A stretch of 64,000 bases of DNA from assembly GCF_014873755.1 (NCBI RefSeq), contig NZ_JADBEG010000001.1, positions 7,042,501 through 7,106,500 on the forward strand. Reading direction: 5' to 3'. Shown here one piece after another: positions 28,020 through 55,945 of this stretch (position 1 is the stretch's first letter; each line of letters opens with the position of its first letter). This stretch comes from Amycolatopsis lexingtonensis (GTDB lineage: Bacteria > Actinomycetota > Actinomycetes > Mycobacteriales > Pseudonocardiaceae). The notes below the pieces were generated by a model. That model saw only the letters and a program-made list of their open reading frames with translations, ran no database searches and was not told the DNA's origin. Both the position numbers and the translations under genes were made by a program.

Positions 28020-28586
28020 ATGGAGCACATGACCGAGCCGAACTTCACAGCCGGTGACGCTGGCCAGGAACATTCACCCCACGTGGTGGTCGTGGGCCCG
28101 GACGGCACCCCGGTGGGCGCGGACGAGCACCCCGAGTCGGTCGGCGACCTCGTCGAAGAGCCGGCGAAGGTGATGCGGATCGGCACGATGATCAAGCAGC
28201 TCCTCGAGGAGGTCCGCGCGGCCCCGCTGGACGACGCTTCCCGCAACCGCGTGCGCGAGATCCACGAGACGTCGGTGAAGGAACTGGCGGCCTCGCTGGC
28301 CCCGGAGCTGCAGGACGAGCTGGAGCGGCTGGTGCGGCCGTTCACCGACGACTCGACGCCTTCGGACGCGGAGCTGCGGATCGCGCAGGCTCAGCTGGTC
28401 GGGTGGCTCGAGGGGTTGTTCAGCGGGATACAGACCGCGCTGTTCGCCCAGCAGATGGCGGCCCGGGTCCAGCTGGAGCAGATGCGGCGGGGGCTGCCTG
28501 CCGGTCCTTCGGCGGGTGGACCTGGGGCCGGGCCGGGGCACGAGGGGCACGGGCCGGGGATCTCGGGGACGGGTCAGTACCTCTGA
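28020..28586 (+). CDS. bpa: Bacterial proteasome activator Bpa
   Basis: 188 residues. The core (EEPAKVMRIGTMIKQLLEEV through AELRIAQAQLVGWLEGLFSG and IQTALFAQQMAARVQLEQMR) matches M. tuberculosis Rv3780/Bpa almost residue for residue. The C-terminus GTGQYL carries the penultimate Tyr motif that opens the 20S proteasome gate. Bpa forms a dodecameric ring and delivers unfolded proteins for ATP-independent degradation. The start may be at 28020 or 28029. Its presence implies a 20S proteasome elsewhere in the genome. Confidence 0.95.
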   Translation: MEHMTEPNFTAGDAGQEHSPHVVVVGPDGTPVGADEHPESVGDLVEEPAKVMRIGTMIKQLLEEVRAAPLDDASRNRVREIHETSVKELAASLAPELQDELERLVRPFTDDSTPSDAELRIAQAQLVGWLEGLFSGIQTALFAQQMAARVQLEQMRRGLPAGPSAGGPGAGPGHEGHGPGISGTGQYL

Positions 28587-28774: not shown

Positions 28775-29914
28775 TCAGCGCAACGAGCTGAAGAACTCCC
28801 GCAGGTCGCCGATCAGCGCGTCCGGCTCCTCCAAACCAGCGAAGTGGCCGCCGCGCGGGAACTCCGTCCAGCGGACGATCTCGTCCGTTCGCTCCGCCAG
28901 CTCCCTGATCGGCAGCCCGATGTCGTCCGGGAACACCGCCACCGCCGTCGGGACCGGGTTCCGCGGCGGCGGCGCGCCCCAGCCCGCGGTCAGCGCCGCG
29001 TACAGCCGGGCCGATGAGTTCGCCGTCTCGGTGAACCAGTAGATCGACACGTCCGCCAGCAGGTCGTCGCGGTCGATCAGGTCCTCCGTCGTGTTCGAGA
29101 ACGAGCGGAACTTCTCCGCGATCCACGCCAGCTGGCCCGCCGGGGAGTCGTGCAGGCCGTACGCCAGGGTCTGCGGCTTCGTCGCCTGGATCATCGCGTA
29201 GCCCGTGCCCGACGCCGAGAACGCTTGGCCCTTCTCCAGCGACCGTTTGCCCAGCTCCGGGTCCGAAAGCCCCTCGAGATCGGCCGGGGTGCGGACCACC
29301 GCGGACGCCAGCATCGTCACGTGGATGCCGAGCAGCCGCTCCGGAAACTGGACCGCTAGCTCGCGCGAGATGATCGCGCCCCAGTCACCGCCGTGGGCGC
29401 CGAAGCGCTCGTAGCCCAGCGACGTCATCAGCGAGGCGAACGCCCGCGCCACCCGGTCCGGGCCCCAGTCCGGGGTCGGCGTCGGGCCCGAGAAGCCGTA
29501 GCCCGGGATCGACGGGACCACCAGGGTCAGCGCGTCCGCCGGATCGCCGCCGTACGCGCGCGGGTCCGTGAGCGGACCGATCACGTCCAGGAACTCCACG
29601 ATCGAGCCCGGCCAGCCGTGGGTCAGCAGCACCGGCGTCGCCGCCGGCTCCGGGGACACCACGTGCAGGAAATGCACGTTCGTCCCGTCGATCGTCGTCG
29701 TGAACTGCGGGAACGCGTTGAGCCGCGTCTCCTGCGCCCGCCAGTCGAAGCCCGTCCGCCAGTACTCCGCCAGCTCGCGCACGTAGTCGACCGGCGCCCC
29801 GAGCCGCCAGCCGGTGCCGGCGGGCTGGTCGGGCCAGCGGGTGTTCGCCAGGCGCGTGCGGAGGTCGTCGAGGGCGGCCTGGGGAACGTCGATGCGGAAC
29901 GGGGTGATCGTCAT
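28775..29914 (-). CDS. Epoxide hydrolase (EH-N plus alpha/beta hydrolase)
   Basis: 379 residues. The N-terminal epoxide hydrolase domain (about 1-110) has [20 protein letters not shown] and W-P motifs. The alpha/beta hydrolase core has HGWPGS (oxyanion hole), nucleophile Asp in [10 protein letters not shown] and catalytic His in [11 protein letters not shown]. It resembles microsomal-type epoxide hydrolases. It begins only 3 bases after the PseG stop codon, so it appears to be the last gene of the PseG operon, though no role in nonulosonate synthesis is known. Confidence 0.92.
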
Positions 29915-29917
29915 GCT

Positions 29918-30895
29918 TCAACGATAGGAAGCATCGCGGACAGATCCGGTCCTCGATGCCAGGGAATCCAGGACCCGGTCGACCCCGAGACCGTCCACTG
30001 TGGACGACGCCGTGGCCGACAGCGACCGCCGCAGCGAGGCGTCGGTGAGCAGCGAACGCAGCACCGCGGTCACCTCGGGCAGCCGCGAAGCCAGGGACTC
30101 CGCGGGACCGAGCCCGGCCGCCAGGCCCAGCTCGAGCGCCGCCCGGTAGCCCGGCTCCTGGTTGTCGACCAGCCGGACCGCCGCCGTCGGGACGCCGAGG
30201 CAGCACAGCTCCACGAACGTCACCCCGGACGCGCTCACGGCGACGTCGGTCGTCGCCAGGATGTCCAGCAGCGCCGGGCTCGGCGGGGCCACCCGGATCG
30301 ACTGCCCGGGAAGCAAAGAGGGGACCGAAGGCTCCCCGCGCACCAACGCGTCCACCACGAACGGCTGCTCGGTGTCGCGAAGGGCGCGAAGCAGCAACCC
30401 GACCGTCGCCGACCACTCGGCGCCGCCGCCCAGGACGACGGTGACGTGCAGCGGCGGCCCGGACGGTGCCCGGCGGGTCCCCCGCACGACATCCCGCAGC
30501 GGCGCGTACTCGATGCCGCGCAGCAGCACGTCCGAGCCGTCGTCGGGCCGGGGAGAAGGCGCGAAGCTCGAGTCGACGACGATGTCCGCGGGACGGCGGC
30601 CGAACACGTCGTCCTCGATCGACACCAGCACCGCGCCGGCCGCGTTGACCTCCGGCCGCACGTCGCCGAGGCCGTAGTGGTCGACGACGACCGCGTCGAA
30701 CCCCGTCGCGTCGAAGGGCACCCGCGAGACGCCCAGCTCGTCGAAGCGCGAAGCGAGCCACTCGGCGTTGTCGGTGCGGCCCGCGAACGCGACCCGCCAG
30801 CCGCGCGCCACCGCCCGCTCGGCGTAGGCGACCATCCGCGCGATGTGGCCGGCGCCGATCGACGCCGACGCGTCCGCGCGCAGCAGCAGCCTCAC
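29918..30895 (-). CDS. pseG: UDP-2,4-diacetamido-2,4,6-trideoxy-beta-L-altropyranose hydrolase (PseG/SpsG)
   Basis: 325 residues from the GTG at 30895. It starts RLLLRADASASIGAGHIARM, the PseG/SpsG opening with the catalytic His of the G-x-G-H motif. The C-terminal half has the GT-B nucleotide-binding pattern (VVLGGGAEWSA, VSASGVTFVELCCLGVPT, DNQEPGYRAAL). PseG removes UDP from the bis-acetamido sugar in pseudaminic acid synthesis. GTGA overlap with the upstream cytidylyltransferase indicates coupling. A TCCACTGTGGA palindrome lies near its 3' end (29994-30004). Confidence 0.9.
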   Translation of the reverse strand: MRLLLRADASASIGAGHIARMVAYAERAVARGWRVAFAGRTDNAEWLASRFDELGVSRVPFDATGFDAVVVDHYGLGDVRPEVNAAGAVLVSIEDDVFGRRPADIVVDSSFAPSPRPDDGSDVLLRGIEYAPLRDVVRGTRRAPSGPPLHVTVVLGGGAEWSATVGLLLRALRDTEQPFVVDALVRGEPSVPSLLPGQSIRVAPPSPALLDILATTDVAVSASGVTFVELCCLGVPTAAVRLVDNQEPGYRAALELGLAAGLGPAESLASRLPEVTAVLRSLLTDASLRRSLSATASSTVDGLGVDRVLDSLASRTGSVRDASYR

Positions 30896-31629
30896 GAACC
30901 GACCTTCTTCTGCTCGACGTGCGCGTTCAGCGCCACCAGGTCCGGCCGCGCGCGCAGCAGCGCGACCACGGCCCGCCAGTCGCCGACGCGGTCGCCCAGC
31001 TCGGCCACCAGCGCGGACAGCAGCTCCCAGTCCTCGGCGGTGTCGAGCGTCACGCGCAGGTCGTCGGCGGCCGGGCTCACCACGACGCCGCTGCACGCGT
31101 ACCGCGTCGGCTGCGAGTAGATGCCCGACGTCACGTGCTCCCGGTCCGCGCCGGTGGCGGAAGCAACCTGCTCCAGGAGTACGTCGGCGCGCACCAGCTC
31201 GGCGTCGAAGCCACGCGGCAGCGTCCGGACCAGCGTCGTGCTCACGTAGTCGAGCGTCGGCTGGGCGCGCCAGAGCGTCGCGAGCTGGCCGATCAGCGCC
31301 GGGTCCAGCAGCGGGCAGTCCGCGGTGAGCCTGATCACGGCGTCGGCGGGGTGCTCCCGCAGCGCGAGCCCGAACCGCTCGAGGACGTCGTCGAGCGGAC
31401 CCCGGACCACGGCGGCACCACAGCGAGCGGCTTCGAGAGCGACGTCGTCGTCGGAGGCGTCCGAGGAGGTCGCGACGACCACCTGGTCCACGCCGGGAGC
31501 GGCCGCGGCGGCCCGGACCACCCAGCCCAGCACGCTGCGGCCGGCCAGCGGGCGCAGCACCTTGCCGGGCAGCCTGGTCGAGCTCGACCGGGCCTGGATG
31601 ACGGCGTTGACACCGGGCGCTCCACGCAT
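30892..31629 (-). CDS. SpsF/NeuA-type cytidylyltransferase (CMP-nonulosonate activation)
   Basis: 245 residues from the ATG at 31629 (ATG at 31638 is an alternative). Nucleotidyltransferase opening NAVIQARSSSTRLPGKVL, then LGWVVRAAAAAPGVDQVVVA and DCPLLDP, the pattern of SpsF and NeuA-like enzymes. By position in the pathway it should couple CMP to the nonulosonic acid, the job of PseF. SpsF-type proteins are not always biochemically verified, so this is inference. It overlaps PseG and is divergent from pseB across about 50 bases. Confidence 0.82.
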   Translation of the reverse strand: MRGAPGVNAVIQARSSSTRLPGKVLRPLAGRSVLGWVVRAAAAAPGVDQVVVATSSDASDDDVALEAARCGAAVVRGPLDDVLERFGLALREHPADAVIRLTADCPLLDPALIGQLATLWRAQPTLDYVSTTLVRTLPRGFDAELVRADVLLEQVASATGADREHVTSGIYSQPTRYACSGVVVSPAADDLRVTLDTAEDWELLSALVAELGDRVGDWRAVVALLRARPDLVALNAHVEQKKVGS

Positions 31630-31678
31630 GGGTGACATGATGGCCGACGGCAACCCACCCCAAACGCGGAGGTCAACG

Positions 31679-32662
31679 ATGTCCGAGCTGGATGGCTCCA
31701 GCATCCTGCTCACCGGCGGGACCGGTTCCTTCGGCAAGGCGTTCATCGCGCACGCGCTCGCCGAACTGAACCCGAGCCGGCTGGTCGTGCTCTCCCGCGA
31801 CGAGCTGAAGCAGTACGAGACCCGCCAGCTGTTCGGCGACGACCCGCGCCTGCGCTGGTTCATCGGCGACATCCGCGACCGCCGGCGGCTCGAGCGCGCC
31901 ATGCACGGCGTCGACTACGTCGTGCACGCCGCCGCGCTCAAGCAGGTCGACACCGGTGAGTACAACCCGTTCGAGTTCGTCCAGACCAACGTCATGGGCT
32001 CGCAGAACGTGATCGAGGCCGCGATCGACACCGGCGTCAAGAAGGTCGTCGCGCTGTCGACCGACAAGGCGTCCAGCCCGATCAACCTCTACGGCGCCAC
32101 CAAGCTGTGCGCCGACCGGATGTTCATCAGCGGCAACCACTACGCGGCCGCGCACGTGACGCGCTTCTCCGTGGTCCGCTACGGCAACGTCATGGGCTCG
32201 CGGGGCAGCGTCATCCCGTTCTTCCGGAAGCTGGCCGAAAAGGGCGAATCGCTGCCGATCACGCACAAGGAGATGACCCGCTTCTGGATCACGCTCCCGC
32301 AGGCCGTGCGGTTCGTCGTCGACTCGTTCGACCAGATGCACGGCGGCGAGCTGTACGTGCCGCGGATCCCGAGCATGCGGCTGGTCGACCTGGCCCAGGC
32401 GATCGCGCCGGGCAGCGAGATGCACGAGGTCGGCATCCGCCCGGGCGAGAAGCTGCACGAGGAGATGATCGCCCCCGACGACGCGCGCCGGACGGTCAAG
32501 CTCGAGGACCGCTACGTCGTCCAGCCGCACCTCGCGGGCTGGGGCTACCAGGAGCCCGAAGGCGGGACGCCGATGCCGGAGGGCTTCGCCTACCGCTCGG
32601 ACACCAACGACCTCTGGCTGAACCCGGAGGAGCTGCGCGAGCTGGTCGAGCAGCATGGCTGA
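31679..32662 (+). CDS. pseB: UDP-N-acetylglucosamine 4,6-dehydratase (inverting), PseB
   Basis: 327 residues from the ATG at 31679 behind GCGGAGG. The SDR fold has cofactor site TGGTGSFG, then HAAALKQVDTGEYNPFEF, and the active-site block STDKASSPINLYGATK with the catalytic Lys and Tyr characteristic of C5-inverting PseB rather than RmlB or LegB. First step of pseudaminic acid synthesis, making UDP-2-acetamido-2,6-dideoxy-beta-L-arabino-hexos-4-ulose. It overlaps pseC by 8 bases. Confidence 0.94.
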   Translation: MSELDGSSILLTGGTGSFGKAFIAHALAELNPSRLVVLSRDELKQYETRQLFGDDPRLRWFIGDIRDRRRLERAMHGVDYVVHAAALKQVDTGEYNPFEFVQTNVMGSQNVIEAAIDTGVKKVVALSTDKASSPINLYGATKLCADRMFISGNHYAAAHVTRFSVVRYGNVMGSRGSVIPFFRKLAEKGESLPITHKEMTRFWITLPQAVRFVVDSFDQMHGGELYVPRIPSMRLVDLAQAIAPGSEMHEVGIRPGEKLHEEMIAPDDARRTVKLEDRYVVQPHLAGWGYQEPEGGTPMPEGFAYRSDTNDLWLNPEELRELVEQHG

Positions 32663-33785
32663 GTTCCTCCCCTACGGCCGCCAGTCGATCAGCGAAGAGG
32701 ACATCCAGGCCGTCGTGGACGTGCTGCGTGGCGACTGGCTGACGACCGGGCCCGCCGTCCATCAGTTCGAAAACGACCTCGCTGGGTACACCGGCGGCAC
32801 ACCCGCGGTAGCCGTCACCTCGGGCACCGCCGCCCTGCACGTCGCCTACGCGGCCGCCGGGATCAGGGCGGGCGACGAGGTCGTCACCTCGCCGATGACG
32901 TTCGTCGCCACCGCCGCGACCGCCGCCCTGCACGGCGCGAAGGTGGTCTTCGCCGACGTCGAACCGGACACCGGCAACCTCGACGTCGAGGCCGCGAAGG
33001 CCGCGGTAACCGACCGCACCAAGGTCGTCGCCGCCGTCGACTACGCGGGCCACCCGGCCGAGCTGGACGCGCTCGCCAAGATCGCGCACAACGCGGGCGC
33101 GCTGCTGCTGGAGGACGCGGCGCACTCGGTCGGCGGGTCCTGGCAGGGCCGTCCGGTGGGCTCGATCGCCGACCTGACGACGTTCTCGTTCTTCCCGACC
33201 AAGAACCTCACCACGGCCGAAGGCGGCGCCGTCGTGACGCCCCGGGAAGACCTGCTGGACCGGGCGCGGAAGTTCCGCAACCACGGCCTGGTCCGCGACC
33301 GCGCCGAGCAGCGCTACCCGGACGAAGGCGGCTGGCACCAGGAAGTCCACGAGTTCGGGCTGAACTACCGCCTGCCGGACGTCCTCTGCGCGCTCGGGTC
33401 CAGCCAGCTCACGCGGCTCGCGGAGTTCAAGAAGCGCCGCGCCGAGATCCACGCCCGCTACACCGCCGCGCTGAGCGACGTCGACGGCGTGGCGACGCCG
33501 CCGAGCCGCCCGGGCGCCGACCCGGTGTGGCACCTCTACCCGCTGCGGGTCCTCGAAGGCCGCCGCAAGGCGCTGTTCGAGCACCTGCGCGGTACCGGCA
33601 TCGGAGTCCAGGTCAACTACATCCCGGCGTACTGGCACCCCGTCTTCGAGGACCTGGGCTACCGCCGCGGCCTGTGCCCGAACGCCGAGGCGTACTACGA
33701 GCAGGAGCTGTCGCTGCCGCTGTTCCCGGCGCTGACGGACGCCGACGTCGACCGCGTCGTCGACGCCGTGCGCGCGTTCTTCTAG
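32655..33785 (+). CDS. pseC: UDP-4-keto sugar aminotransferase PseC (DegT/DnrJ/EryC1 family)
   Basis: 376 residues. PLP fold type I: SGTAALHVAYAAAGI, LLEDAAHSVGG with the Asp that binds the PLP ring nitrogen, and the Schiff-base Lys in FSFFPTKNLTT. The sugar-binding segment EFGLNYRLPDVLCALG follows. It converts the PseB product into the 4-amino sugar with glutamate as amine donor. It overlaps pseB upstream and the convergent pseI by four bases. Confidence 0.93.
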   Translation: MAEFLPYGRQSISEEDIQAVVDVLRGDWLTTGPAVHQFENDLAGYTGGTPAVAVTSGTAALHVAYAAAGIRAGDEVVTSPMTFVATAATAALHGAKVVFADVEPDTGNLDVEAAKAAVTDRTKVVAAVDYAGHPAELDALAKIAHNAGALLLEDAAHSVGGSWQGRPVGSIADLTTFSFFPTKNLTTAEGGAVVTPREDLLDRARKFRNHGLVRDRAEQRYPDEGGWHQEVHEFGLNYRLPDVLCALGSSQLTRLAEFKKRRAEIHARYTAALSDVDGVATPPSRPGADPVWHLYPLRVLEGRRKALFEHLRGTGIGVQVNYIPAYWHPVFEDLGYRRGLCPNAEAYYEQELSLPLFPALTDADVDRVVDAVRAFF

Positions 33786-34831
33786 ATCAGGTCCCAGGTC
33801 AGGGGCGTGCCCTTCGCGGCGTCGACGCGGAAGGTGCGCCCCACGACCTTGGTGATCTCGGCCGGGGCCAGGCCGCCCGCCGGCCGGATCGACCGGACGT
33901 TCGCCGCGGTGACCTCGTCGCCGGCGCGGACGTCCTCGACGACGTAGAGGGACCGGCGCAGCCGCAGCCCCTCCTTCTCGCTCTCCCGCGGGCCCAGCAC
34001 GGGCTCGCCGAGGGCCTCCCACGCCCGGTGCGTCTCGGCGACCAGCGCGGCCAGCTCCGCCGGCTCCAGCGAGAACTCCGAGTCGACGCCGCCGTCCGCG
34101 CGGGCCAGCGTGACGTGCTTCTCGATCGCCACCGCGCCCAGCGCCACGGCGGCCACGGGCGCGCCGATGCCCGGCGTGTGGTCCGACAGCCCCACCAGCG
34201 TCTGCGTCAGGCCGGCCAGCAGCGGCAGGCCGCGCAGGTTGCTCTCGCGCGGCGACGCCGGGTAGCTCGCCGTGCAGCCGAGCACGATCAGCTGGTCGTT
34301 GCCCGCTTCCCGGGCGGTGCGGACCGCGGCGTCGATCTCGGCGACGTTAGCCATGCCGGTCGAGATGACCAGCGGCTTGCCCGTGCGGGCGCACAGCTCG
34401 ATCAGCGGCAGGTCGACGATCTCCGACGACGCGATCTTGTACGCCGGCGCGTCCAGGGACTCCAGCAGCTCGACGACGGTCGGGTCGAACGGGCTGGAGA
34501 AGATTTCCAGGCCACGAGCACGGGCTCGTTCGAAGAGCGGCGCGTGCCATTCCCACGGCGTGTGGGCCTTTTCGTACAGTTTGTACAGGTTTTCCCCGCC
34601 CCACAGTTCGTGGGTCTCCCCGATCCGGAACGCCGGGGTGTCGACGTCGATGGTGATCGTGTCGGGGCGGTAGGTCTGCAGCTTGACCGCCTGCGCGCCG
34701 GTTTCCGCGATGGCGTCGATGATCTGCAGCGCCCGGTCGAGGTCGCCGTTGTGGTTGCCGGACATCTCGGCGATGACGAACGGCGCGTGGCCCGGACCGA
34801 TCAGGTGCGCGCCGAACCGGATGTCGTGCAT
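33782..34831 (-). CDS. pseI: Pseudaminic acid synthase PseI (NeuB family) with SAF domain
   Basis: 349 residues from the ATG at 34831 behind GGGGAGG. The NeuB TIM barrel (about 15-275) includes FVIAEMSGNHNGDLDRA, KLQTYRPDTI, IASSEIVDLPL, ISTGMA and EKHVTLARADGGVD. A C-terminal antifreeze-like SAF domain (about 288-345, RRSLYVVEDVRAGDEVT) covers the partner active site in this family. It condenses the 6-deoxy bis-acetamido sugar with phosphoenolpyruvate to give the nine-carbon acid. It is the last gene of the minus-strand group PseH-PseI. Confidence 0.93.
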   Translation of the reverse strand: MHDIRFGAHLIGPGHAPFVIAEMSGNHNGDLDRALQIIDAIAETGAQAVKLQTYRPDTITIDVDTPAFRIGETHELWGGENLYKLYEKAHTPWEWHAPLFERARARGLEIFSSPFDPTVVELLESLDAPAYKIASSEIVDLPLIELCARTGKPLVISTGMANVAEIDAAVRTAREAGNDQLIVLGCTASYPASPRESNLRGLPLLAGLTQTLVGLSDHTPGIGAPVAAVALGAVAIEKHVTLARADGGVDSEFSLEPAELAALVAETHRAWEALGEPVLGPRESEKEGLRLRRSLYVVEDVRAGDEVTAANVRSIRPAGGLAPAEITKVVGRTFRVDAAKGTPLTWDLI

Positions 34832-34857
34832 GGTGCCTCCCCGGGGTGGACTGCGGG

Positions 34858-35310
34858 TCAGCTCAGAGTCTTGCGCAGCTGCCGGAAGCCGCTGACGGCA
34901 GGCGCGGCTTCGGCGTACCCGGCGCGCTCGAAGAGCTTCGCCGAGGCGGTGTTGTCCAGATGCACGGCCGCCAGCACGGTCCGGACGCCGAGGCGGTCGC
35001 GGGCGGCCCGCTCGCCCTCGGCGAGCACGGCGCCGGACAAGCCTCGGCCGCGGCTCTCGGGGGCGAGCGTGATGCTGACCTCCCAGCCGTCGCCGTCGCG
35101 CCGGTCGAACCGGACGGTGCCGACCGGCGTCTCCTCGTGCTCGACGACGAGCAGCAGCCGTTGCGGGTCGGCCAGCACCCCGCGCAGCCACGCGAGGTGC
35201 TCGTCGAGGGCCACCACGGCCGTCGAGCGCGACGACTGGCGCGTGCGCGGGTCGTTGCGCCAGTCCAGCAGCAGCTCGGCGTCCGCTTCGGTGGCTTCCC
35301 GGGCGTCCAA
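34858..35310 (-). CDS. pseH: GNAT N-acetyltransferase, PseH-like
   Basis: 150 residues from a TTG start (35310) one base after the upstream stop codon. The GNAT fold has RREATEAD-like start (AREATEADAELLLDWRND), acetyl-CoA loop SRGRGLSGAVL and C-terminal FERAGY. The W-R-N-D motif is shared by PseH-type sugar amine acetyltransferases. In context it should acetylate the 4-amino group of the PseC product, which completes the set. Other amino-sugar substrates are possible. Confidence 0.85.
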   Translation of the reverse strand: MDAREATEADAELLLDWRNDPRTRQSSRSTAVVALDEHLAWLRGVLADPQRLLLVVEHEETPVGTVRFDRRDGDGWEVSITLAPESRGRGLSGAVLAEGERAARDRLGVRTVLAAVHLDNTASAKLFERAGYAEAAPAVSGFRQLRKTLS

Positions 35311-35311
35311 G

Positions 35312-35746
35312 CTACTGGCTGACGGGCTCTTCGACCCGGTCCTCGAGCCGGCGCAGCCGGTCCTCGTAGCGGGAGATGCCCGCCAGCCGGACCCGGATCT
35401 GCGCGTGCTGCCGCTGGATCTCCTCGATCAGCGTGCGGGCCTCGGCGATCTGCGGCGCGTCGGCCTTCGGCACCAGCGACATCGACTCGCGCAGCGTCTC
35501 CAGGCGGCCCTCCTGGGCGGCCACGTGCGGGATCAGGCGGTCGAGCTCGGCGCGGGCCCAGCGCAGGTCGCCCCGTGCCTGCTCGAGGTTGTGCTCGGCG
35601 TTGTCGAGCCGGCGCCGATGGTCGGCGGTCGCGTGCTCGAGGTTGTTGACGCGGTCGGCGAGCGCGCGGGTGCGTTCGTCGACGCGGAAGTCGATCAGCC
35701 GGGCGATCCGGTCGACGAAGCCTCTGCCCAGTTTCTGCACAGCCAT
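35312..35746 (-). CDS. Coiled-coil protein within the nonulosonate operon
   Basis: 144 residues from the ATG at 35746 behind AAGGA. Nearly all helical: heptad-rich stretches about 25-80 (TRALADRVNNLEHATADHRR, AEHNLEQARGDLRWARAELD) and about 95-140 (RTLIEEIQRQHAQIRVRL, EDRLRRLEDRV). No signal peptide or catalytic motif. It sits between the sialyltransferase-like gene (34-base gap) and PseH (one-base gap), so it is co-transcribed. It may dimerise, scaffold or measure glycan length; no function is known. Confidence 0.75.
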   Translation of the reverse strand: MAVQKLGRGFVDRIARLIDFRVDERTRALADRVNNLEHATADHRRRLDNAEHNLEQARGDLRWARAELDRLIPHVAAQEGRLETLRESMSLVPKADAPQIAEARTLIEEIQRQHAQIRVRLAGISRYEDRLRRLEDRVEEPVSQ

Positions 35747-35780
35747 GGGTGGGTCCTTACGTGGAGGTGGGGACGCGCGT

Positions 35781-36437
35781 TCAGCGCAGGAGGGTGGTGT
35801 CGCCGGTCTTCGTCCAGGAGTCCAGCAGCCGCCCTTCGGCGGCGATCTGGTGTTCCGGGCCGACGATGCAGGAGTCGCCGGCGGCGTGCTCCCACGAGGT
35901 CTGGTCCGGGTTGTCGATGAACGAGAACCCGGTGAGCACGAGCTGCGCGGTCGGGAACGACGTCCGCGCGATCCAGGCCGCCAGCGTGCCGGTGGTCGAC
36001 CACGTCGGCTCGTCGCGGGTCGGCAGGCCCAGCGCGTCCGACAGCGGCAGCACGACCTCGCGGTTCGACACCGGCACCGCGCCCAGGTCGGCGGGCCACC
36101 AGCCCGGCAGGTCCTCCGGCTCCCAGTGCATCCGGCCCGGCTCGACCAGCAGGTAGAGCCGCTTGCGGTAGTCCTGGAAGACGTACGGGGTGGCCCGGAT
36201 CGCCCGGTTGAACACCACGACGTGCGTCCGGGAGCCGACGATCTCCTCGCCGGGCTTGTCGACGACGAAGCCGTTGACCCGGATGACCAGGTCACAGGCG
36301 TCGATCGCCTTCGCGCGCTGGGGGTCGGGCGGGAGCGGCTGGTTGCCGACCACGGCCACCGAGCGCGGGTCGGGCCGGTCGGCGTACGCCGCGAGCAGGT
36401 TGACCATCAAGCTCGCCGCGCCGAGAGCAGCAGTCAT
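35781..36437 (-). CDS. Sialyltransferase-like protein (GT29/GT42-type motifs)
   Basis: 218 residues from the ATG at 36437 (another at 36407). No Shine-Dalgarno; TACTTT lies 8 bases upstream. The motif order matches sialyltransferases: SVAVVGNQPLP (26-36) then ACDLVIRVN (47-55) like motif L; WSTTGTLAAWIA (146-157) leading to LVLTGFSF (166-173) like motif S; and His196-x4-Glu201 (HQIAAE) like motif VS. I infer it uses a CMP-nonulosonate made by the adjacent enzymes. The N-terminus has a weak hydrophobic stretch, so membrane association is possible. Shorter than most characterised members. Confidence 0.7.
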   Translation of the reverse strand: MTAALGAASLMVNLLAAYADRPDPRSVAVVGNQPLPPDPQRAKAIDACDLVIRVNGFVVDKPGEEIVGSRTHVVVFNRAIRATPYVFQDYRKRLYLLVEPGRMHWEPEDLPGWWPADLGAVPVSNREVVLPLSDALGLPTRDEPTWSTTGTLAAWIARTSFPTAQLVLTGFSFIDNPDQTSWEHAAGDSCIVGPEHQIAAEGRLLDSWTKTGDTTLLR

Positions 36438-36551: not shown

Positions 36552-37505
36552 GTGCATGCCACCAGCACGGTTCAGGCCGCGAACTCCCCCGTAGCGACGC
36601 CGGCACCGCCGACGTCGGACAGCAAGACGTTCGCGCGCGCCTTCGCCGACATCAAGGCCGGTTTCCGCGCCCGCGAGCTGTGGGGACACCTCGGCTGGCA
36701 GGACATCAAGCAGCGCTACCGCCGCTCGGTGATCGGACCCTTCTGGATCACGATCAGCCAGGCCGTCATCGCGCTCGGGCTCGGGTTGCTGTACTCACAG
36801 CTGTTCAACACCCCGATCCAGGTGTTCCTGCCCTACCTGTCCACCGGCTTCATCCTCTGGGGCTTCATCAGCGGCTGCCTCGCCGAGGGCATGGAGACGT
36901 TCATCGCGAACGAGGGGCTGATCAAGCAGCTCCCCGCGCCGCTGAGCGTGTACATGCTGCGCACGGTGTGGCGGCAGTCGCTGCTCCTGGCGCACAACAT
37001 GATCGTCTACGTCGCGGTGCTGGCGATCTTCTTCACCGCGCTGGACAACCAGTACTCGCTGGGGTCGAAGGACGGCCTCTGCGCGGCCGGCCTGTACTGC
37101 CACCCCGGCCTCAGCTGGACCGTGCTGCTGGCCATCCCGGGCTTCCTGCTGCTCGCGCTGAACGCGGGCTGGGTGACGCTGCTGCTGGGCATCATCTCGA
37201 CCCGGTTCCGCGACATCCCGCAGGTCATCAACTCGCTGATCCAGCTGCTGTTCTACGCCACGCCGATCGTCTGGCCGGTGGACCAGCTGCTCGCGGGCGG
37301 TGCCCGCGCGAACGCCTCCTGGGCACTGCCGATCATCCAGCTCAACCCGCTGTACCACTTCATGCAGGTGGTCCGGGCGCCGCTGATCGGGCAGTCCTTC
37401 ACGCCCGGCAACTGGATCGTCGTCGGCGCCATCACCATCGTCGGGTGGGCGCTCGCGCTCGTCGCGATGCGCAATTACCGTGCCCGCGTCTCCTACTGGG
37501 TGTGA
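36552..37505 (+). CDS. wzm: ABC-2 type permease Wzm (galactan/O-antigen exporter), Rv3783-like
   Basis: 317 residues from the GTG at 36552, 7 bases behind TACCCT (36539-36544), a leaderless start. About six membrane helices after an amphipathic segment with LWGHLGWQDIKQRYRRSVIGPFW (cut here to the key W-D-I-K-x-R-Y-R-R-S pattern), the gating helix of Wzm proteins. With Wzt it should flip the lipid-linked galactan across the membrane, as Rv3781/Rv3783 do in mycobacteria. It is divergent from the sialyltransferase-like gene. Confidence 0.94.
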   Translation: MHATSTVQAANSPVATPAPPTSDSKTFARAFADIKAGFRARELWGHLGWQDIKQRYRRSVIGPFWITISQAVIALGLGLLYSQLFNTPIQVFLPYLSTGFILWGFISGCLAEGMETFIANEGLIKQLPAPLSVYMLRTVWRQSLLLAHNMIVYVAVLAIFFTALDNQYSLGSKDGLCAAGLYCHPGLSWTVLLAIPGFLLLALNAGWVTLLLGIISTRFRDIPQVINSLIQLLFYATPIVWPVDQLLAGGARANASWALPIIQLNPLYHFMQVVRAPLIGQSFTPGNWIVVGAITIVGWALALVAMRNYRARVSYWV

Positions 37506-37508
37506 CAC

Positions 37509-38324
37509 ATGGTCTCCATTGACGTTCAGAACGCCTTCGTCGACTTCCCGATCTTCGACGCCAAGACCCGTTCGATGAAGAAGAAGGTCCTCGGCAAGGT
37601 CGGCGGCAAGATCGGCACCGACACCAAGGTGCCGATCATCGAAGCGCTGCACGACGTGACGCTTTCGCTGCGCGAAGGCGACCGGGTCGGCCTGGTCGGC
37701 CACAACGGCGCGGGCAAGTCCACGCTGCTGCGGCTGCTCGCCGGGATCTACGAGCCGACGCGCGGCTCCTCGCGGATCGAGGGCAAGATCGCCCCGGTCT
37801 TCGACCTCGGCGTCGGCATGGACCCCGAGATCTCCGGCGAGGAGAACATCATCATCCGCGGCCTCTTCCTCGGGATGACGGCCAAGGAGATGGAGAAGCG
37901 CGTCGACGACATCGCGGAGTTCACCGAGCTCGGCGACTACCTCCAGATGCCGCTGCGGACGTACTCGACGGGTATGCGCGTGCGGCTGGCGCTGGGCGTC
38001 GTCACGTCGATCGACCCCGAGATCCTGATCCTCGACGAGGGCATCGGCGCGGTCGACGCGGCGTTCCTCAACAAGGCCCGCGACCGGCTCAAGGACCTGG
38101 TGAAGCGCTCCGGGATCCTGGTCTTCGCCAGCCACTCGGACGAGTTCCTGTTCGAGCTCTGCGACTCGGCCATCTGGATGGACGAGGGTCACCTCAAGCA
38201 ACAGGGTTCGCTGCGGGACGTCCTCACGTCGTACAAGGGGCGTGACCCCTTCGAGAACATGAGCCAGGAAACCTTGGAGCGCTTCGGCATCGAGCCGGTG
38301 GCGACGACGAACGGCGGCGAATGA
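37509..38324 (+). CDS. wzt: ABC transporter ATPase Wzt, Rv3781-like
   Basis: 271 residues. Walker A GHNGAGKST, degenerate signature YSTGMRVRL (typical of Wzt), Walker B ILILDEG and switch His in FASHSDEF. It lacks the long C-terminal carbohydrate-binding domain of O-antigen Wzt proteins, as in the mycobacterial galactan exporter. It begins 3 bases after wzm and overlaps glfT1 by ATGA, forming a wzm-wzt-glfT1 operon. Confidence 0.95.
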   Translation: MVSIDVQNAFVDFPIFDAKTRSMKKKVLGKVGGKIGTDTKVPIIEALHDVTLSLREGDRVGLVGHNGAGKSTLLRLLAGIYEPTRGSSRIEGKIAPVFDLGVGMDPEISGEENIIIRGLFLGMTAKEMEKRVDDIAEFTELGDYLQMPLRTYSTGMRVRLALGVVTSIDPEILILDEGIGAVDAAFLNKARDRLKDLVKRSGILVFASHSDEFLFELCDSAIWMDEGHLKQQGSLRDVLTSYKGRDPFENMSQETLERFGIEPVATTNGGE

Positions 38325-39232
38325 TGGCCAGCGAGACCCGGCAGCTGCCCGACGGCGCGGTCGTCGGCGTGGTCGTCACGCGGCACCGGCGCGAGCTGCT
38401 GGCGGACTCGCTGAAGGTCATCGCGGCCCAGACGCGGCCGGTCGACCACCTCGTGGTGGTCGACAACGGGCCGGACGACTCGGCCCGCGAAGTCGTCGAG
38501 AACTACCCGCTGCCGAGCACGTACCTGCCATCGCACCGCAACCTCGGCGGCGCCGGCGGGTTCGCGCTGGGCATGCTGCACGCGCTGTCGCTGGGCGCGG
38601 ACTGGATCTGGCTGGCCGACGACGACGGGCGCCCGGCCGACGAGAACGTGCTCGCGATCCTGCTGGAGGAAGCGGAAAAGCGGGACCTGGCGGAGATTTC
38701 GCCCGTGGTGTCCAACATCGACGCCCCGGACAAGCTCGCGTTCCCGCTGCGCCGCGGCCTGACGTGGAAGCGGTCGCAGGCCGAGCTGGGCGTGGACTTC
38801 CTGCCCGGCATCGCGTCCCTGATGAACGGCGCGCTGTTCCGGGCGTCCACTTTGGACGTCGTCGGCGTGCCGGACCTGCGCCTGTTCTTCCGCGGCGACG
38901 AGGTCGAGCTGCACCGGCGGCTGGTGCGTTCGGGCCTGCCGTTCGGCACGTCGCTGAAGACGAAGTACCTGCACCCGGACGGCTCGGACGAGTTCAAGCC
39001 GATGCTGGGCGGCAAGTTCCACGCGCAGGACCCGGAAAACGAGGTCAAGCGGTACTACACGTACCGCAACCGCGGGTACTTGCTGTCGCAGCCGGGGATG
39101 CGGAAGATCGGCGCACTGGAGATCGTCCGGTTCGGACTGTACTTCGTCGGCGTGAAGCGGGACCCGAAGGCGTTCCTGCAGTGGCTGAAGCTGGTGCGGC
39201 AGGGCCGCGCGGAGAAGTTCTACCGCTACTGA
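38321..39232 (+). CDS. glfT1: Galactofuranosyltransferase GlfT1 (GT2), Rv3782-like
   Basis: 303 residues. GT-A fold: VVGVVVTRHRRELLADSLKV, VVVDNGPDDSA, HRNLGGAGGFALG and metal-binding DDD in WLADDDGRP. GlfT1 adds the first galactofuranose residues onto the rhamnosyl-GlcNAc linker of arabinogalactan using UDP-galactofuranose made by Glf. It acts at the cytoplasmic membrane face and is translationally coupled to wzt. Confidence 0.94.
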   Translation: MMASETRQLPDGAVVGVVVTRHRRELLADSLKVIAAQTRPVDHLVVVDNGPDDSAREVVENYPLPSTYLPSHRNLGGAGGFALGMLHALSLGADWIWLADDDGRPADENVLAILLEEAEKRDLAEISPVVSNIDAPDKLAFPLRRGLTWKRSQAELGVDFLPGIASLMNGALFRASTLDVVGVPDLRLFFRGDEVELHRRLVRSGLPFGTSLKTKYLHPDGSDEFKPMLGGKFHAQDPENEVKRYYTYRNRGYLLSQPGMRKIGALEIVRFGLYFVGVKRDPKAFLQWLKLVRQGRAEKFYRY

Positions 39233-43630: not shown

Positions 43631-45550
43631 TCAGAGCTTGTACAGGCGCTTCCAGTTCTCGCGCGAGGTCAGCTCGGGCATGGCGCGCTTGTACTGCTCC
43701 TGCACCGCCGCGCCTTCCTTGCGCAGCCGCTGGACCACCTTCGCTCCACGCTTGGCCAGGTCGAACATCTTGACCTTGTCGTAGGACCGGACGCGGACGC
43801 CTTCCTGGTTCGCGTCCGTCACGACCGCCGTGTCGAACAGGGCGATGTGCCACCAGTTCGCCTCGTCGATCGGGACCGCGCCGAGGCCGAAGCGGCTGCG
43901 GCCGAGGACCCGGTCGAGCACGCGCTTGATCAGCACCAGGCGCTGCATGCTGGGCCGCGGCGCGCTGTTGATGATGCCGATGTCGTTGGACGCGATACCC
44001 GGGACGTCGGTCGCCTTGTGCCGCTTGGTCTCCGGGTAGGCGTCGCGGATCCGGCGGATCTCCTGCATCGCCTCGACCCCACCGTCACGCAGGATCTCCG
44101 GACCCTCGAGGAAGTCCTCGACGGCCTTGATCAGCGTCGCCGACAAGCCGTACTGCATGCCGAGCAGATAGCGCACCAGCTGCGCCAGCAGCACCCGCGA
44201 GAGCAGGTTCAGGTTGAACGGCGAGTGCAGCGCGGCGGTGATGATCGAGTTACGCAGGTTGAAGTACCGGTGCCACTCGTCCCAGTCCTTCATGTGGAAG
44301 TCCGCGTGCCACACGCCCGCGCCCGGCAGCGTCACGGTCGGGAAGCCGTGCGCGCGGGCCCGGTAGGAGTACTCCGCGTCGTCCCACTGGAAGAAGAACG
44401 GCAGCGGGTAGCCGGTCGCCTGCACGACCTCGTACGGGATCAGGCACGACCACCAGCCGTTGTAGCCGGCGTCGAGGCGGCGCTCCTGACGGTTCGGCTT
44501 GAGCGTCTCCTCGTCCACGCCGAGCAGGTCGGCCGTCGACAGCGAGTGCTCGACCGGCTGGCCGGGCTCGAGGGTGTTGAGCCGGGCGTACTCGGCGCCG
44601 ACGTGCAGCTGGTTCGGGTGGAACAGGTTCAGCATCTGGCCGCCGACGATGATCGGGTTGGCGGCGCGGTTGGAGAACGCCGTCATCCGGATCACCAGGT
44701 CCGGCTCGAGCAGCACGTCGTCGTCCATGAACAGGACGTTCGCGTGCTCGGTCGCGGTGTGCCCGGCCACCTCGAACAGACCGCGGGTGAAACCACCGGC
44801 ACCACCGAGGTTCGGCTGCTTGATGTAGTGCAGCTTGTCCGCGAGGTCCTTCGCGACCTGCTCGAACCCCTCACGCGACTCCACCAGGTCGGTGCCCTGG
44901 TCGGCGACGTAGATCGCGTCCAGGGTCTCCAGCGAGGAGACGTCCGCGGCGAGCGCCTGCAGGTTCTTCAGGCAGTCGTCGGCGCGGTTCATCGTGCAGA
45001 TCGTCACCGCCGTCGGGCGGATCTTCTCCGGCGCCTCGACCGTCCAGCGGACCTGCTCCACCCGCAGCGTCTGGCCACCCTCGGTCTCCAGGTCCAGCCA
45101 GAGCGCGCCACCGTCGTAGAACTTGTCCAGCTTGCCGGTCAGCACGACCTTCAGCTGCGTGGCGTCGGCGACCTGCTCGGCGGCCACCACACGCGGCTCA
45201 CCCTCGACGTCGGACGCACCCATCGACAGCAGGCCGGTGCCGGTCACGACGGCCTCGACCGAGACCTCTGACACGGTCGTCCAACGCTGCCAGTAGCTGG
45301 CCGGGAACCGGCCGAAGTACGTGTTGCCCGACACCTTGGAGGCGGGCTCCAGGGAGATCACCGCACGTTCCCGCACGGCCGAGCCCCACTCAAGCTCGGC
45401 GTACAGGTCCTTGCTGACGATCGGCGCCGGGCCGGCGTAGAGCCCACGCTGCGCCGTCAGGCGACCCTGCGGAGTGTGCTCGGTGAACCGCGTCTCGGCG
45501 GCCGCGCCGGCTTGGGTGGTCGGCGCCGGGGTGGCTGTTTTACCGGGCAT
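43631..45550 (-). CDS. glfT2: Galactofuranosyltransferase GlfT2 (GT78/GT2), Rv3808c-like
   Basis: 639 residues, close to the 637 of the M. tuberculosis enzyme. An N-terminal beta-sandwich (about 1-175) precedes the GT-A domain with NLGGAGGFTRG and DDD at 276-278 (FMDDDV), then WDDAEYSYRA and the catalytic His/Asp region HADFHMKDWDEWHRYFNLRN (HADFH). It polymerises galactofuranose with alternating beta-1,5 and beta-1,6 bonds. Here it follows the GtrA gene (8-base gap) rather than sitting next to glf as in mycobacteria. Confidence 0.96.
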   Translation of the reverse strand: MPGKTATPAPTTQAGAAAETRFTEHTPQGRLTAQRGLYAGPAPIVSKDLYAELEWGSAVRERAVISLEPASKVSGNTYFGRFPASYWQRWTTVSEVSVEAVVTGTGLLSMGASDVEGEPRVVAAEQVADATQLKVVLTGKLDKFYDGGALWLDLETEGGQTLRVEQVRWTVEAPEKIRPTAVTICTMNRADDCLKNLQALAADVSSLETLDAIYVADQGTDLVESREGFEQVAKDLADKLHYIKQPNLGGAGGFTRGLFEVAGHTATEHANVLFMDDDVLLEPDLVIRMTAFSNRAANPIIVGGQMLNLFHPNQLHVGAEYARLNTLEPGQPVEHSLSTADLLGVDEETLKPNRQERRLDAGYNGWWSCLIPYEVVQATGYPLPFFFQWDDAEYSYRARAHGFPTVTLPGAGVWHADFHMKDWDEWHRYFNLRNSIITAALHSPFNLNLLSRVLLAQLVRYLLGMQYGLSATLIKAVEDFLEGPEILRDGGVEAMQEIRRIRDAYPETKRHKATDVPGIASNDIGIINSAPRPSMQRLVLIKRVLDRVLGRSRFGLGAVPIDEANWWHIALFDTAVVTDANQEGVRVRSYDKVKMFDLAKRGAKVVQRLRKEGAAVQEQYKRAMPELTSRENWKRLYKL

Positions 45551-52125: not shown

Positions 52126-55945
<3,820 letters not shown>

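Follow-up and report, generated by a model that had tools for sequence, protein, structure and literature searches.

A nonulosonic acid pathway and a GT29-like transferase beside the galactan export genes of Amycolatopsis lexingtonensis suggest an acidic decoration of actinobacterial wall galactan

What is the role of a pathway for a sialic-acid-like sugar that lies in the midst of genes for arabinogalactan synthesis? The question is raised by a stretch of 64,000 nucleotides from the genome of Amycolatopsis lexingtonensis (positions 7,042,501-7,106,500 of a single contig of 10,737,921 bases; hereafter the window), in which genes for a pseudaminic-type nonulosonic acid (NulO) are located between bpa, coding for the bacterial proteasome activator, and the galactan genes wzm, wzt and glfT1. 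The host is, by its genes, an arabinogalactan maker, since DprE1 and DprE2 (to the right of the island), Glf and GlfT2 are all encoded in the window, and one match to the Emb-type arabinosyltransferases (PF04602) is present in the genome. The answer favoured here, with a probability of roughly 0.6, is that a GT29-like transferase encoded in the same island caps or decorates lipid-linked galactan with the acidic NulO in the cytosol, before its export by Wzm-Wzt. Taken across the genomes surveyed, the sequences suggest that an acidic sugar is present on the wall galactan in many actinobacteria.

The designation of the pathway as pseudaminic-type, which was the core of an original prediction made from the DNA of the window, is well supported by homology, because PseB, PseC and PseI all pass the NCBIfam equivalog cut-offs (TIGR03589, 484.8 bits against 407.75; TIGR03588, 427.2 against 423.5; and TIGR03586, 448.1 against 340.25, respectively), and because PseI scores far under the cut-off for a neuraminate synthase (TIGR03569, 259.5 against 399.65). 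The best solved relatives of PseB and PseI are a UDP-GlcNAc C6 dehydratase (2gn4) and a pseudaminic acid synthase (8h2c), and PseI is the one match to NeuB (PF03102) in the 10.74-Mb genome. All six activities of the pathway had been claimed, of which the remaining three are assigned more weakly. PseG reaches 79.3 bits against a cut-off of 153.55 and matches the solved structure 3hbm weakly, at E 0.82; the PseH candidate is a GNAT protein with four PDB matches, in which the PseH entry 4xpk scores about as well as the three other acetyltransferases; and the cytidylyltransferase scores 28.9 against 205.7 for the PseF model TIGR03584. The island therefore resembles the known route to pseudaminic acid (PseB-C-H-G-I-F) in its six activities by homology, and differs from it in the weak matches of its PseG and PseF. 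The predicted product would be pseudaminic acid linked to cytidine monophosphate (CMP), or a close isomer.

Two further genes of the module, which the original prediction did not name, code for a GT29-like protein and a coiled-coil protein. The GT29-like protein passes the gathering score of PF00777 (23.3 against 23, in the motif L region only), its predicted structure has a GT29 fold, and its best structural matches, among the matches listed, are sialyltransferases. In an alignment of 38 sequences (the window protein and 37 among the 120 matches listed of 207 relatives), sialylmotifs L, S and VS are represented by N32, T149, G150, H196 and E201, which are invariant, and by N55, which is conserved in at least 90% of the sequences; the N-N, T-H and H-E spacings are the same as in hST3Gal1. 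A putative sialylmotif III histidine, H184, is likewise present in at least 90% of the sequences, 12 residues before H196, compared to 17 in hST3Gal1. The assignment of the donor and the transferase class, namely CMP-NulO and GT29, is well supported at this level. Many homologues lack a counterpart of the first residues of the window protein and start at its residue 10 to 11, which would leave hardly any space for a membrane anchor. The closest GT29-like proteins, at 99% identity, are from Amycolatopsis; carriers of the gene include Amycolatopsis and Microbacterium species, and several relatives are already named "glycosyltransferase family 29" in the source databases. Bacterial GT29 members are known from Proteobacteria, and for those known in 2018 no function could be predicted from the trees (PMC5811610). 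The present clade shares the fold and motifs L, S and VS with the enzymes described there, yet it is actinobacterial (that paper does not contain the word actinobacteria), its proteins are of about 209-218 amino acids, and it is distinguished by a constant coiled-coil neighbour and by its ties to NulO and galactan genes.

The coiled-coil protein is encoded separately from the transferase and immediately downstream of it, the two genes being 34 bp apart, and a relative of it adjoins GT29 in all 80 loci compared (the best 80 of 92 GT29 relatives; loci are numbered L and genomes G), 78 of them found by tblastn and two (L052 and L062) by gene calls. Its C-terminal part is conserved and the remainder is variable in length, as seen in an alignment of the window's protein with 31 of the 77 called neighbours. 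The AlphaFold2 model (pLDDT 91.1, pTM 0.52) shows helices at residues 2-91 and 98-139, the first of 90 residues; the protein is thus helical by its model, and a putative coiled coil. The constant core of the loci consists of GT29 and the coiled coil, while the type of sugar pathway varies: PseB and PseC occur in 54 loci, a NeuC-type pathway in 8, and a different synthase alone in 9. A NulO synthase is local in 71 of the 80 loci, and a strong NeuB-family match occurs elsewhere in the genomes of the other nine, which in one case (L050) is split in two at contig ends. In a quickly built GT29 tree, 8 changes of pathway label are required, compared to a mean of 16.4 upon shuffling and with a value as low in 0 of 200 shuffles; the 8 changes overstate the true switches, because the label "other" includes possibly incomplete loci, such as L029, which ends at a contig end, and L061. 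The pathway types cluster on the tree but are not fixed. Clearer switches are provided by neuraminic-type loci within supported pseudaminic-type clades: that of A. arida (L041), which codes for NeuC (331.8 against a cut-off of 235.9), a NeuB-type synthase and a CMP-sugar synthetase, and those of L049 and L055, among Blastococcus and Modestobacter. In A. thermalba (L075), a fusion of cytidylyltransferase and phosphatase accompanies a short NeuB. In this locus (L075:7881-9074) the CMP-sugar synthetase is fused to a KdsC/Kdn-9-phosphatase-like domain and is situated beside a NeuB without the SAF domain; the fusion suggests that the NulO is made via a 9-phosphate.

Transferase and synthase also occur together at the level of whole genomes. 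In a sample of 249 genomes of the family Pseudonocardiaceae, GT29 was found in 61, and 71 have a strong NeuB, defined by the 73 matches with E values up to 6.5e-37. A strong NeuB is present in 58 of the 61 GT29 carriers, within 10 kb in 54 and on another contig in 4, and 13 genomes have a strong NeuB without GT29. The three carriers that lack a synthase all belong to one genus and have kept both GT29 and the coiled-coil relative; no NeuB was found genome-wide in them, two of the three being only 82-83% complete, and no Pse gene in the 12-16 kb stretches examined. Their GT29 has lost N32, N55, the H184 segment and H196, with T149-G150 and much else kept. The interval up to bpa is contiguous in L082 and L083, and the stretch of L084 ends short of bpa. 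As the three genomes are closely related, this decay is possibly a single event.

Linkage to the galactan genes extends beyond the window. GlfT1, GlfT2, Glf, or Wzm with Wzt, are encoded within 10 kb in 61 of the 80 loci, comprising 49/53 in Pseudonocardiaceae, 7/10 in Microbacteriaceae, 4/11 in Geodermatophilaceae, 0/4 in Nocardioidaceae, where the contigs (three of 7.3-18.4 kb, the others of 20.6 to 41.7 kb) are too short for a view past the flank, and 1/2 with no family name. The position may simply be inherited within Pseudonocardiaceae, and other families were therefore tested. In Microbacteriaceae and Geodermatophilaceae, all 21 genomes contain one UDP-galactopyranose mutase match and one GT29 each, at a distance of 2.3-36.2 kb in 18, while in the remaining 3 they are on separate contigs. 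Eight genomes have Glf more than 10 kb away, and the seven of these that were examined (all but G555) contain Wzm and Wzt relatives (7/7) as well as a GlfT1 or GlfT2 relative (7/7), the latter weak in G541 and G540 (67 and 88 bits). Such nearness of Glf and GT29 in genomes of 3.3-5.5 Mb would rarely arise by chance; kinship, which the Fisher and binomial values on linkage ignore, makes the formal value too small. In the family sample, the distances between wzm and GT29 derive from the matches listed, with 15 of the 61 GT29 genomes having no figure.

The interval between bpa and wzm was compared across Pseudonocardiaceae, and was found to hold a NulO module, a pyruvyltransferase, or nothing. 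In 16 hand-picked intervals without GT29 (8 of the 9 such genomes of the same genus, G214 being left out, and 8 from other genera), the gap between bpa and wzm is 215-428 bp in six, and the gene adjoining wzm is a PF04230 pyruvyltransferase relative in eight, Pfam having been run on four; one pyruvyltransferase interval (L093) has no bpa in the stretch, L104 contains other small genes, and L105 is counted in neither the gap nor the pyruvyltransferase class. The 17 genomes of the genus divide into 8 with GT29 and a strong NeuB, 7 with a pyruvyltransferase near wzm, 2 with neither (one of which, G214, was classed from the genome searches) and 0 with both; the near-wzm pyruvyltransferases of these genomes share 77-100% identity. 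Throughout the family, the pyruvyltransferase query has matches at 1e-30 in 72/249 genomes, and 6/61 GT29 carriers possess a relative (G049, G115, G124, G205, G226 and G231). In G049, the sole carrier with the two within 10 kb, the pyruvyltransferase lies 7 kb from GT29, and it is likewise near in locus L040, so that they are not mutually exclusive. Pyruvate ketals, like NulOs, place a carboxylate on a sugar chain. Because the module recurs at the bpa-wzm site in several Pseudonocardiaceae genera, the pattern would fit an old and variable decoration slot. The island had been described as inserted, a word that suggests a recent event; composition does not support a recent foreign insertion, the G+C content being 0.722 in the island compared to 0.712 in the window and 0.716 and 0.687 in the flanks. 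In a Sciscionella-like genome (G040; L085 and L086), GT29 and the coiled coil are found by wzm, whereas the Pse genes adjoin bpa on a different contig, which looks like a slot that was split. Many distant PF04230 relatives contain one in-frame stop within the aligned range, perhaps a natural stop with run-over of the alignment.

According to the proposed mechanism, CMP-pseudaminic acid, or a close isomer, would be made in the cytosol by PseB, PseC, PseH, PseG, PseI and then the cytidylyltransferase. The GT29-like enzyme would use the CMP-linked NulO to modify lipid-linked galactofuranan during its growth (decaprenyl-PP-GlcNAc-Rha-Gal_n, the product of GlfT1 and GlfT2), either as a terminal cap or as a side group, and the neighbouring Wzm-Wzt would then flip the decorated galactan out, to become arabinogalactan. 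The coiled-coil protein, as the constant partner of GT29, would probably hold the transferase at the membrane or at the polymerase. Addition before export is favoured because one transferase, and no initiator, polymerase or exporter, was found in the interval, the donor would be cytosolic, the GT29-like protein would leave little room for an anchor, and the lipid-linked galactan is built by the neighbouring genes. In mycobacteria this glycan is built by GlfT1 and GlfT2 and exported by Wzm-Wzt, according to the available part of PMC10951656; the window contains orthologues of all these components, yet no NulO is described in that part, and galactan size regulation is treated there as a hypothesis under study. 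The bpa-wzm interval would thus serve as a decoration slot, in which the cargo varies by species between a pseudaminic-type, a neuraminic-type or another NulO, pyruvate and nothing, the common outcome of the cargoes being a carboxylate on galactan. If this is true, a sialic-acid-like, negatively charged sugar would be added to arabinogalactan, and a function would be provided for the actinobacterial branch of the GT29 sialyltransferases. The Pse enzymes, bacterial GT29 and NulOs in actinobacterial walls are already known, but neither a NulO on galactan nor the GT29/coiled-coil pair was found described in the literature searched, mostly at the level of titles and abstracts and with few subscription journals. 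The decoration originally predicted as unrecognised would, in that literature, be new for galactan; NulOs in actinobacterial walls as such are not new, being reported in PMC7831098.

A parallel is provided by the ABC-exported O-antigens whose chains are terminated by WbdD, WbbB and the Klebsiella O4 system. In the sections available of PMC11231755, Klebsiella O4 is described with a CMP-Kdo-dependent terminator and a coiled-coil ruler, and Klebsiella O1 with a terminal pyruvate, the latter resembling the pyruvyltransferase slot. The likeness consists of a CMP-ulosonate-type transferase, a coiled-coil protein beside it and export by Wzm-Wzt. An extended reading, in which GT29 and the coiled coil act as cap and ruler, would have the NulO (or pyruvate in sister species) stop GlfT2 while the coiled coil determines how long the chain becomes; a swappable bpa-wzm cassette would then encode both the chain length and the surface charge of arabinogalactan. 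This reading is doubtful, and its idea that the coiled coil controls length is conjectural. The polymer differs from the O-antigens in being a Gram-positive galactan. Two features speak against a strict terminator of the O-antigen kind: the coiled coil is a protein of its own rather than fused to the terminator, and the Wzt of 271 amino acids matches only ABC_tran and, below threshold, AAA_21, with no C-terminal carbohydrate-binding module among its domain matches. Were the reading correct, it would offer a handle on the setting of galactan size, for which the part available of PMC10951656 has only a working hypothesis.

The NulO might instead belong to a polymer of its own in the wall or capsule, either similar to teichulosonic acid or a poly-NulO, with the galactan neighbourhood representing a general wall-polymer region, which is considered unlikely. 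The available text of PMC7831098 describes a Kdn teichulosonic acid as the major wall polymer of Streptomyces coelicolor, which similarly represents a NulO in an actinobacterial wall polymer, although it is a Kdn-galactose polymer of its own, with no attachment to arabinogalactan in that text. Such a destination would also be compatible with the Microbacterium loci that code for another GT2 (L065), with the members of cluster u12 near GT29, one of which, in L052, matches Wzy_C, and with the 13 family genomes that have NeuB and lack GT29. Yet profile searches of the bpa-wzm interval of the window revealed one transferase and no initiating transferase, polymerase or exporter, and the nearness to Glf, GlfT1, GlfT2, Wzm and Wzt recurs in three families.

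The best-known role of pseudaminic acid is in the glycosylation of flagellins, and the transferase could in the same manner modify proteins, either cytosolic or exported. An LGFP-repeat protein is indeed encoded near GT29 in Naasia, and the same cluster (11 members, 6 loci) appears beside GT29 and the coiled coil in Geodermatophilus (coordinates of the protein and cluster, L052:2559-4163 and L068:11279-17885). A protein target is nevertheless improbable: the LGFP cluster is present in only 6/80 loci, compared to 61/80 with galactan genes nearby, and no PF01973 (MptE/Maf-like) match was found in the host genome, in a search where all 4 control matches are archaeal and the sensitivity to bacterial Maf is undemonstrated. 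Of the two targets originally envisaged, envelope or secreted protein, the envelope is retained, with lipid-linked galactan preferred to a secreted protein because the module's own GT29 is linked to the galactan genes. The genus is also rich in antibiotic clusters, and the NulO could in principle be a donor for the glycosylation of a specialised metabolite, its position in the cluster being accidental; the conservation of that position across several genera and the sialyltransferases that head the structural matches listed make this hardly credible, although biosynthetic clusters were not themselves searched for. Finally, GT29 and the coiled coil might act on galactan with the GT29-like protein serving as a regulator or scaffold without transfer, its transfer activity being a prediction from sequence. 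This is very improbable, as the putative catalytic His and Glu and the CMP-binding Asn are fully or almost fully conserved across the 38 sequences, and loss of these key residues was found in the three genomes that lack a synthase.

The features of the locus are collected in Table 1. From left to right, the order is bpa (+), an epoxide hydrolase-like gene (-), pseG with the cytidylyltransferase gene (-), pseB-pseC (+), pseI-pseH-coiled coil-GT29 (-) and wzm-wzt-glfT1 (+). The location between bpa and wzm was correctly predicted, with Wzm, Wzt and GlfT1 all exceeding the galactan equivalog cut-offs, as was the arrangement in three tightly coupled groups, inside which neighbouring genes either share as many as 8 bp or are separated by at most 34 bp. 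The six pathway genes had been placed within 4.7 kb; their actual span, 29918-35310, is 5.4 kb.

Table 1. Features of the NulO island and of the flanking galactan genes (positions in the window)
Feature	Position	Strand	Evidence and remarks
bpa, bacterial proteasome activator, left flank of slot	28020..28586	+	PF10759 BPA 250.3 bits
Epoxide hydrolase-like	28775..29914	-	EHN 140.9 bits; 3 bp downstream of pseG, same strand
PseG-like UDP-sugar hydrolase	29918..30895	-	TIGR03590 79.3 bits
Cytidylyltransferase, PseF role	30892..31638	-	CTP_transf_3 87.7 bits; PDB 6oew 6.6e-26
PseB, UDP-GlcNAc 4,6-dehydratase (inverting)	31679..32662	+	TIGR03589; PDB 2gn4 1.7e-108
PseC, aminotransferase	32655..33785	+	TIGR03588
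PseI, pseudaminic acid synthase	33782..34831	-	TIGR03586; PDB 8h2c 2.8e-69
PseH-like GNAT N-acetyltransferase	34858..35310	-	Acetyltransf_3 61.8 bits; PDB 4xpk 6.5e-6
Coiled-coil protein, 144 amino acids	35312..35746	-	Adjoins GT29 in 80/80 loci; AlphaFold2 model
GT29-like putative nonulosonyl (sialyl-type) transferase, 218 amino acids	35781..36437	-	Candidate starts 36437, 36488, 36407
wzm, galactan exporter permease	36552..37505 (start provisional)	+	NF050109 429.8 bits, cut-off 380
wzt, galactan exporter ATPase	37509..38324	+	NF050108 468 bits, cut-off 400
glfT1, initiating galactofuranosyltransferase	38321..39232	+	NF050113 506.3 bits, cut-off 330
glfT2, galactan polymerase (context)	43631..45550	-	GlfT2_domain3 and Glft2_N
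glf, UDP-galactopyranose mutase (context)	52633..53856	-	TIGR00031 349.4 bits, cut-off 303.75

Several additional genes accompany the module in part of the loci. A protein of 525 amino acids, with no Pfam or NCBIfam match, follows pseG in some Amycolatopsis (L007:16916-18493; 11 other loci also have it), and relatives of it are also present in loci of Prauserella and Saccharomonospora. A different protein of 520 amino acids, again with no family match, adjoins GT29 and the coiled coil in A. thermalba (L075:11149-12711) and A. deserti (L078). The epoxide hydrolase-like gene was considered as a part of the module and rejected; it probably lies outside, because it is found in intervals without Pse genes (L092, L094, L095 and L096). 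The same gene is kept in several intervals of the genus that hold the pyruvyltransferase.

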